The notes below the pieces were generated by a model that saw only the letters and a program-made list of their open reading frames with translations, was not told where the DNA came from and did no database searches. From Nitrospira sp. (GTDB lineage: Bacteria > Nitrospirota > Nitrospiria > Nitrospirales > Nitrospiraceae), in NCBI GenBank assembly GCA_005116745.1, contig SWDS01000001.1, forward strand, positions 186,001 through 250,000: DNA of 64,000 nt, read 5' to 3'. Below, in pieces: positions 25,539 to 27,951 of this stretch. Numbering within the stretch: the stretch's first letter is position 1; the number at the start of each line of letters is the position of its first letter. The translations under genes were made by a program, and so were the position numbers.

Positions 25539-25827
25539 GACCATTGATGTAGAAATTTATGGTCAGCGGTACGCGATCACGGGAGGCGGCGATGATGCCT
25601 ATGTCCGGCGGCTGGCCAATTTTGTCGACGATCATATGAAGCATCTGGCGGAAGGAATGAAGACAACGACCCCATCGAAGTTGGCGGTGCTGACGGCGAT
25701 CAATCTTGCTCATCAGCTGTTTGAGTCCGAGAAGAAGCGAGTCCAAGGAGAGGCTGATGTCGAACGGCGGATGGTGACGTTGATGGAATCGATCGATGAG
25801 CAGATGCCGACTTCGCTCTTTCGATAG
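25531..25827 (+). CDS. zapA: Cell division protein ZapA
   Basis: ZapA binds FtsZ and bundles its filaments at mid-cell. The 98-residue frame has the globular head (VEIYGQRYAITGG, VRRLANFVDDHMK) and the C-terminal coiled coil (NLAHQLFESEKKRVQGE). The start is the TTG at 25531: AGGAGG lies six bases before it, while an upstream ATG at 25483 would add 16 residues foreign to the family. The 8-bp overlap with the coiled-coil gene indicates translational coupling. Confidence 0.9.
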   Translation: MTKTIDVEIYGQRYAITGGGDDAYVRRLANFVDDHMKHLAEGMKTTTPSKLAVLTAINLAHQLFESEKKRVQGEADVERRMVTLMESIDEQMPTSLFR

Positions 25828-25876
25828 CGGAGATTCGCCTTGCTTTCAAAGAGTCCCTTTGTTAACATATAGATAG

Positions 25877-26281
25877 GTGAGTGTGCGGATGAGTAGGGAA
25901 GAGTGATATCGCCGATTGTTGATCGCCTGGAAACGAGTGCTAAGAAAACCACAAGAGAACGTTTGTTTGATAGGATACGAAGTGTTCATTCGGTGGATGC
26001 TCAAGCTATGGGTCGTGCGTGGGCGGCGTCACATGGGCGCCCAGCGGCCAGTTTCTGAAATTGAAGCGATCCGGCGAATACCTGTCGGATGGAACGAGTA
26101 TCTACCCTCCATGCCTGTTTCGATCGCTGACTCTTTCCAATGGCTGATGTCTGGAAACAGACGCCTAAGGAAGGGCAGAGAGAGAAACTTTCTGAGTATG
26201 GCATCGTATCCTGGCAATCTCTTGCGGCTCCAGGCGAGTCGACTCGCGGTCTCCTAAGACTCTTCCATCTCTTCACCTCAC
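25877..26281 (+). ncRNA. Candidate ~400-nt structured RNA between zapA and rny
   Basis: The 507-bp gap between zapA and rny has no convincing protein frame. Its two ends can pair: bases 25897-25904 with 26259-26266 (8 bp), flanked by shorter helices 25891-25893/26269-26271 and 25877-25881/26277-26281. Inside are a stem closed by GAAA (26149-26162), a 7-bp hairpin (26176-26194), a 14-base palindrome (26234-26247) and a 7-bp helix 26065-26071/26122-26128. A TATAGA element at about 25869 could start it. Many bacteria have 6S RNA after zapA, but I do not see the 6S consensus and the length is double. RNase P, tmRNA and SRP RNA signatures are absent. Confidence 0.4.
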
Positions 26282-26334
26282 ATTAGTTATTCGCGTTCAT
26301 TCCGCTCAGTCTGAGGCGGGGGCTCCGCATCAGG

Positions 26335-27951
26335 TTGAGCCTATTGGATCTGATTGTTTTCAAGAAGGGGGTGACTCCCATTTCTACATCAACTGTCGTG
26401 TACATAATCCTTTCGTTGATCTTCGGAGCTGTGGCTGGTGCTGGAGTATTTGATTTCCTGCGACGACGGATGACAGGTGCCAAGCAGGCTGAGGCAGAAG
26501 ACTTGGCTAAGCAGGTTGTGCAGAACGCACAGCGAGAGGCCGAGAATGTTGTCAAAGAAGCCAGGTTTGAAGCTAAGGATCTGGTCTTCAAGGCAAAGTC
26601 CGAATTCGAGCAAGAGGAGAAAGCCAAACTTGCTGAACTCTCGACGGTGGAGAAGCGTCTGATCCAACGAGAGGGAGGACTTGACGGGAAAGTTGCCGCT
26701 CTGGAAAAGAGAGAAACTGAGTCACGCAAGCGCGAGGCAGATTTCGCGAAGCGAGAAGAGGGGCTGGCGGTCAAAGAGTCTGCCTGCGCCAAGGCTGAAC
26801 GCGAACATCGAGACGCGCTGGAACGGGTCGCCGGGATGACGGCCGATGAAGCCAAGAAACAATTGATCCTCGAAATGGAATCGCAAGCGAAACTCGAGGC
26901 CGTAGGCCTTGCCAAGCGCACGATCGAAGAGGCTCGTGAGAACGCCGAGCGTGAGGCGCGGGAAATCATCACCAGCTCGATTCAACGTGTCGTTCGTGAT
27001 TATGTCGCGGAATCCACGATCTCGGTGGTTCCCATTGCCAACGATGCCATGAAAGGTCGAATCATCGGTCGGGAAGGGCGCAATATCCGTGCGCTTGAAG
27101 CGGCGACGGGTATTGATCTGATCATCGACGAAACTCCTGAAGCCGTGATTATCTCTGGGTTCGATCCGTTGCGGCGCGAGATTGCCAAAGTGTCGCTGGA
27201 GCGCCTGATGCACGACGGGCGTATCCATCCCACGCGCATTGAGGAGATTGTCGAAAAGGTCAAGGTCGACATCGACAAGCTAATGTATGAAGAAGCAGAG
27301 AAAATTATTTTCGAACTGGGGCTTTCGGACTTTCATCCTGAGTTGATCAAGGTCTTGGGGCGACTCAAGTATCGCACGAGCTACGGGCAAAATAACCTCT
27401 ATCATGCCCGTGAGGCCTCGTACATTTGCGGCATCATGGCGTCGGAATTGGGTCTCGATGTCCGACTAGCTCGGCGCGGCGCCTTGCTGCATGATATCGG
27501 TAAGGCGGTCAGCCATGAAGAAGAGGGACCGCATGCCATGCTCGGGGCCGAGATCGCCAAGAAATACGGCGAATCTCCAAAGATCGTTAACGCGATCGCC
27601 GCGCATCATGAGCAGGTGGAGCCGATTTGCCCGGAGAGTGTGTTGGTGGCGGCGGCCGAGGCGTTGTCGGCGGCGCGTCCAGGTGCGCGGCGGGAAGCGC
27701 TGGAGTCGTATGTGAAGCGGTTGGAAAAGCTGGAATCGCTCGCGACTGGGCATAAGGGCGTGCAGAAAGCCTACGCGATCCAAGCCGGACGTGAAATTCG
27801 CGTCATTGTGAGGCAAGAGGACATCACCGATGCCGAGTCGTTTCAGCTGTCTCGTGAATTGGCGAAGAAGATCGAGCAAGAGTTGACCTATCCGGGACAG
27901 ATCAAGGTCACCGTCATTCGAGAAAGCCGCTACGTGGAATACGCCAAATGA
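26335..27951 (+). CDS. rny: Ribonuclease Y
   Basis: RNase Y is a membrane-anchored endonuclease that starts mRNA decay. The N-terminus holds one membrane helix (VVYIILSLIFGAVAGAGVF), followed by ~150 residues of charged coiled coil. A KH domain (MKGRIIGREGRNIRALE) and an HD domain (ARRGALLHDIGKAV, then HHEQVEP) follow. The length is the family norm. The start is uncertain between the TTG at 26335 and a GTG at 26371 that begins nearer the helix. The ymdB ATG overlaps the stop. Confidence 0.93.
   Translation: MSLLDLIVFKKGVTPISTSTVVYIILSLIFGAVAGAGVFDFLRRRMTGAKQAEAEDLAKQVVQNAQREAENVVKEARFEAKDLVFKAKSEFEQEEKAKLAELSTVEKRLIQREGGLDGKVAALEKRETESRKREADFAKREEGLAVKESACAKAEREHRDALERVAGMTADEAKKQLILEMESQAKLEAVGLAKRTIEEARENAEREAREIITSSIQRVVRDYVAESTISVVPIANDAMKGRIIGREGRNIRALEAATGIDLIIDETPEAVIISGFDPLRREIAKVSLERLMHDGRIHPTRIEEIVEKVKVDIDKLMYEEAEKIIFELGLSDFHPELIKVLGRLKYRTSYGQNNLYHAREASYICGIMASELGLDVRLARRGALLHDIGKAVSHEEEGPHAMLGAEIAKKYGESPKIVNAIAAHHEQVEPICPESVLVAAAEALSAARPGARREALESYVKRLEKLESLATGHKGVQKAYAIQAGREIRVIVRQEDITDAESFQLSRELAKKIEQELTYPGQIKVTVIRESRYVEYAK

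Follow-up and report, generated by a model that had tools for sequence, protein, structure and literature searches.

The gap between zapA and rny in the window (the whole 64,000-nt stretch of Nitrospira DNA analyzed here; all features below are on its forward strand) holds a strongly folding region of ~410 nt and a small open reading frame (ORF) behind a conserved promoter-like block, and the RNA of this gap is not 6S RNA by any test made. Our reading is tentative, and we give it somewhat less than even chances: the gap would be a ~500-nt 5′ leader of rny, transcribed from the old 6S promoter and carrying an upstream ORF with a buried start, that controls the synthesis of RNase Y. What we observe is promoter conservation, the stable predicted fold, homologs of the ORF, the conserved ATT start of rny, and the absence of 6S from this place; the transcript, its co-transcription with rny, and a regulatory role are inferred. 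A housekeeping RNA locus has changed its content, with 6S in sister lineages and a folded stretch plus a small ORF in Nitrospira.

The zapA stop codon is at 25827 and the rny frame starts at 26335, leaving the 507-nt gap described in the initial annotation of this DNA. The order zapA, ~500-nt gap, rny was maintained in all loci examined across the genus, family, and order; our search for literature on this locus returned none. The promoter-like block (25840-25868) consists of a -35 box TTGCTT (25840-25845), a 17-nt spacer, and a -10 box TAACAT (25863-25868), the last being TATCGT in most relatives. It is the sole strongly conserved promoter-like block in the gap, sits 5′ of the fold, and is retained family-wide, with a column conservation of 0.97 around 25843-25862 (34 genomes) and a p-distance of 0.04-0.07 vs. 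0.2-0.3 in the remaining gap; a simple scan for the sigma-70 consensus did not flag it. The middle of the gap diverges near the synonymous rate (clade A: p-distance = 0.22 vs. pS = 0.28 in zapA), and the segment between the fold and rny is of low conservation, by column conservation and by p-distance, up to the rny ribosome site.

The folding z of 25877-26287 is -4.8 on the forward strand and -2.7 on the reverse strand, far more stable than chance; 60 segments of 410 nt taken elsewhere in the window have a mean z of -0.17 (SD = 1.2, minimum = -2.94). The mean fold z is -3.4 in 17 sequences from three subclades, and consensus folds in three subclades reach z of about -4 to -10 against column-shuffled and locally shuffled alignments. 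The predicted structure (25872-26287) is a rod made up of P1-P6 and topped by a pair of arms, P7 and P8. The closing stem P1 pairs 25872-25892 with 26270-26287, and 36 of its 43 double changes between subclades A1 and A2 still pair (all double-change counts given here compare sequences, not independent events), its exact register differing among clades. Next comes the 8-bp helix named in the initial annotation, GGAAGAGT at 25897-25904 with ACTCTTCC at 26259-26266, which is exact in the window and has more pairing outside it; its record among relatives is mixed, with 37/55 double and 90/197 single changes still pairing. P3/P4 (25905-25935 with 26225-26253) is in part common to the independently derived folds of clades A and C, as are P5 (25954-25963 with 26213-26222) and P6 (25972-25980 with 26204-26212), the last being 91-98% paired across clades A-C. 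The best-supported helix is in the P7 arm (25992-26106, closed by 25992-26002 with 26096-26106), where pairing survives 21/22, 21/21, and 32/35 double changes. The P8 arm (26109-26201) is poorly conserved in its inner part. It includes GTCTG-GAAA-CAGAC (26149-26162), followed by CCTAAG (26164-26169) and TATGG (26197-26201), all present as annotated, and had been taken to hold a GNRA tetraloop with its 11-nt receptor. We rejected that motif: neither receptor strand nor the GAAA stem is kept in relatives, and they are replaced in examples such as L007, L010, and L014, with GTCGAG and TGTGG in L007. What stands of the proposed ~400-nt structured RNA with a closing stem is a strongly folding region, closing stem included, in the window's own clades.

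The small ORF (25967-26257) has 96 codons from a TTG start at 25967 to a stop at 26257, and an in-frame TTG at 25916 would extend it to 113. Its start sits between P5 and P6, with the 5′ strand of P6 immediately 3′ of it, and its weak Shine-Dalgarno (SD) sequence AGAGAA (25954-25959) lies within the 5′ strand of P5, so the predicted fold would hinder its translation. Where close relatives have an ATG for this ORF the window has ATA (25970-25972), the in-frame TTG at 25967 being a possible start.

Covariation, to which the initial annotation had looked for confirmation, is weak. An R-scape-like test in our own implementation, with a tree-based null, returned zero significant pairs. Among positions changed on both sides in clade A, 55% still pair vs. 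36% in a partner-swap control, and most of the deeper between-clade comparisons showed no compensatory excess over control. Clades A and C, folded independently, have 31 pairs in common (part of P3, P4, P5, P6, and P7), but this core is mostly invariant or variable on one side only and therefore says little on covariation (covariation score 0.132 vs. 0.124 when shuffled, reached by 35/500 shuffles). A claim of strong covariation from the cross-clade figure (79.9% paired vs. ~42% when slid) was rejected as misleading, because a control swapping partners among equal pair types erased the excess between most clades; what covariation support remains after this control is within clades and in P7.

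The fold is also limited in its taxonomic reach. Mean single-sequence z is ordinary in genera g12 (-0.41) and g14 (-0.34), where the gap and the promoter are still present, and only modestly better than chance (-1.64) in the deep Nitrospira clades; one of the two g17 sequences is at -5.2, and alignment-level fold z in g12 and g14 is -3.8 and -5.2, respectively. The ordinary single-sequence values rule against a tight fold throughout the family, and together with the weak values of the deep clades they show that the tight fold is mainly confined to the window's nearer Nitrospira relatives. A new class of RNA, as had been suggested, is therefore unproven: the fold holds mainly in the nearer clades, covariation is weak, and the gap contains a partly conserved protein frame.

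Beyond the fold lies the ribosome-binding site of rny, GGGGGTG, with an ATT start codon (26367-26381, ATT at 26379-26381; conservation 0.97). The combination of the SD sequence AGGGGGTGACTCCC with an ATT start recurs in 100 of 128 loci, a few relatives having TTG or ATG. AUU starts are rare, E. coli infC and pcnB being examples, and they are sensitive to initiation factor IF3, so the translation of RNase Y in Nitrospirales may be specially controlled. Separately, the rny of one relative (L005 1988-3027, genome G019) seems to be without ~192 internal codons, aligned residues 1-23 being followed directly by 216-538, which is either a real deletion or an assembly error.

The leader is favored by the single conserved promoter 5′ of the fold, by the gap having no terminator-like site that we could find, by the kept zapA-gap-rny order, and by the ATT start behind a strong SD, which fits tight translational control of rny; it also gains from the stability of the fold, far above background, and from P5 and P6, the helices enclosing the small-ORF start, being common to independent folds, and it has precedents in the long rne leaders and in the autoregulation of rny in B. 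subtilis. Transcription would begin at the conserved promoter right after zapA, the apparent driver of 6S in sister lineages, and the initial ~410 nt would, in the Nitrospira clades of the window, fold into the tight rod and two arms. The rod would pair the 5′ part of the leader with the end of the small ORF, burying the weak SD and start of that ORF; beyond the fold would follow the ribosome site of rny and its rare start codon, AUU. The likeliest role is that the level of RNase Y is set in cis: RNase Y cleavage, the movement of ribosomes along the small ORF, or a switch in the folding of the rod may set how much intact rny mRNA is translated. Weak covariation counts against the leader. The missing intrinsic terminator is weak evidence for it, because rho-dependent termination or processing is possible, and a closing stem near the predicted transcription start would also fit a discrete RNA. 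Nor can a fold-based mechanism be general, since g12 and g14 have no strong fold despite the same gap and promoter.

The position of the gap is that of 6S RNA in sister lineages, which bears out the positional part of the initial suggestion of a 6S-like RNA. Canonical 6S was found in 12 of 20 stretches upstream of rny from other lineages of the class and phylum (62-114 bits), some copies lying immediately after zapA; of 20 gaps belonging to the genus, family, and order, none contained it. A covariance search of 25780-26420 against Rfam gave no RF00013 match, whether at the gathering score or with E relaxed to 10. The family has a divergent 6S located elsewhere, of which mostly the apical core alone matches Rfam (~23-46 bits); the Nitrospiraceae 6S (L002 and L141-L170) is well conserved over the ~157 nt aligned, with a terminal stem of the 6S type and a promoter of its own, TTGACT-17-TATCGT. 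The copy of the window's genome is on contig C9 at 169514-169670 (L002 1460-1616), and scores 29.9 bits vs. an Rfam cut-off of 46.4. A model built from Nitrospira 6S scores 164.9 bits on this copy and also recognizes the 6S that outgroups carry before rny, and it returned no match in any Nitrospirales gap searched. Many genomes have second 6S copies, mostly at ~43-85 bits with the genus model. With both models silent, with 6S of the genus elsewhere, and with the folded region at ~410 nt being about twice as long as 6S (about 150-210 nt; PMC4191392), we rejected 6S identity for the gap RNA, and no sequence or model test supports the "6S-like" label. RNase P was likewise rejected as the content of the gap, as it was found elsewhere (282.5 bits). 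In three other families of the same order (f2-f4; G036-G055 and others), neither Rfam nor the Nitrospira model found 6S, except in the f3 genomes G241 and G249; these families may have lost 6S or carry one that has diverged too far.

The Nitrospira promoter TTGCTT-17-TATCGT (TAACAT in the window) is placed like the TTGCTT-17-TAAAAT before the canonical 6S of two sister-lineage loci (L124 and L125), and we infer from position and likeness that the promoter after zapA is probably the old 6S promoter. The shared promoter position and -35 box, together with the canonical 6S at the same place in sister lineages, would also suit a discrete regulatory RNA of ~410 nt, descended from the ancestral 6S or replacing it and acting in trans, e.g., on RNA polymerase in the way of mycobacterial Ms1, an earlier example of a rod-like RNA that resembles 6S but is longer (PMC4191392). 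That the closing stem starts close to the predicted transcription start points the same way. We nevertheless consider such an RNA possible but doubtful, given that neither Rfam nor the Nitrospira model detects any 6S signal in the gap, that Nitrospira keeps its 6S elsewhere, that the tight fold is not family-wide, and that no terminator-like site was found to end the transcript.

The gap had been described as without a credible gene, and this was not confirmed, as a conserved same-strand ORF runs through most of the genus with a weak but repeated coding signal; the gap is not clearly gene-free. Homologs of the small ORF occur in 69 of 77 genus gaps, and its profile accepted no opposite-strand match. 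Homologous translations alone are not proof of coding, because the underlying DNA is itself homologous. Similarly sized frames whose N-terminus is hydrophobic occupy the same place in g12, g14, and g17. In a codon-substitution test against simulated histories, z was 2.6 in group A, 3.1 in C, 3.6 in E, 2.6 in g12, and 3.7 in g14; of the remaining four of nine groups, three small ones gave lower positive values, and clade B gave -0.7. The dN/dS of the small ORF is 0.47-0.74, shifted frames being higher in most groups, and its pN in clade A is 0.20 vs. 0.014 in zapA. The codon tests favor coding, but the constraint is weak. The conserved protein frame that the initial annotation had set against a structured RNA is accordingly there in part: it is widespread in the genus, weakly constrained, and split or stopped in clade B and also in L012.

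The small ORF could instead be the main product, a fast-evolving gene for a basic peptide of ~90-100 amino acids whose N-terminal helix is hydrophobic and which may partner RNase Y at the membrane; the fold would then merely restrain its translation. The same-strand homologs, the coding z of 2.6-3.7 even in genera without an unusual fold, the dN/dS below that of most shifted frames, and the hydrophobic N-terminus recurring in several genera all argue for such a gene. We judge it rather unlikely, however, since constraint is weak, the frame is broken in clade B and L012, and relatives have neither a conserved start codon nor a strong SD for it; AlphaFold models little beyond a single helix (pLDDT = 57), and the product matched no known protein family. 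A single-protein search, whose reach is limited to close relatives, matched it solely in Nitrospira/Nitrospirae records.

The leader, discrete-RNA, and small-protein readings are not fully exclusive of one another. It is quite unlikely, though conceivable, that the ancestral 6S position has become a new dual-purpose RNA, twice as long and tightly folded, that codes for a small membrane peptide as well as controlling RNase Y, with 6S moved elsewhere. Least probable of all is a mostly inert spacer or a remnant of the former 6S region, its promoter kept for rny and the rest drifting, with fold and frame incidental: the near-synonymous divergence of the gap middle and the ordinary folding energy of g12 and g14 speak for it, and the maintenance of gap length and promoter throughout the family, the mean fold z of -3.4 in three subclades, and the recurrence of coding bias in several groups speak against it.

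Among known systems, the gap region resembles 6S RNA (SsrS, RF00013) in chromosomal position and in the similarly placed promoter of sister lineages, in its rod-like predicted fold, and in its closing stem, and differs from it in being twice as long, in matching neither the Rfam nor the Nitrospira 6S model, and in that Nitrospira has its 6S elsewhere. Type I toxin mRNAs such as hok are a few hundred nucleotides long, with paired ends and the start of a small hydrophobic ORF buried. The gap element shares with them its length, its paired ends, and the buried start of a small hydrophobic ORF; unlike them, it is fixed before rny, and its peptide has a long nonhydrophobic tail. Ms1 RNA of mycobacteria (~300 nt) is longer than 6S and has a rod-like predicted fold (PMC4191392), as does the gap region, but M. 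smegmatis appears to be without 6S whereas Nitrospira keeps it, and the likeness is one of length and fold description, with polymerase binding only hypothetical here. In B. subtilis, RNase Y controls its own mRNA partly via cleavage in the 5′ UTR (PMC10303841). The enzyme is the same and the 5′ UTR is again the proposed site of control; the abstract of that work mentions neither an upstream ORF nor a folded region comparable to the ~410 nt found here, and cleavage in Nitrospira is putative. The rne 5′ UTR, which is involved in feedback control, has a length of 361 nt in E. coli and spans 458-622 nt in cyanobacteria (PMC10989929). It is likewise a very long leader before the gene of the main mRNA-decay endonuclease; the enzyme is different, the Nitrospira leader has an upstream ORF inside it, and the likeness is by description, regulation in Nitrospira being predicted. 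If rny indeed has such a leader, long self-controlling leaders on RNase genes would extend to Nitrospira.
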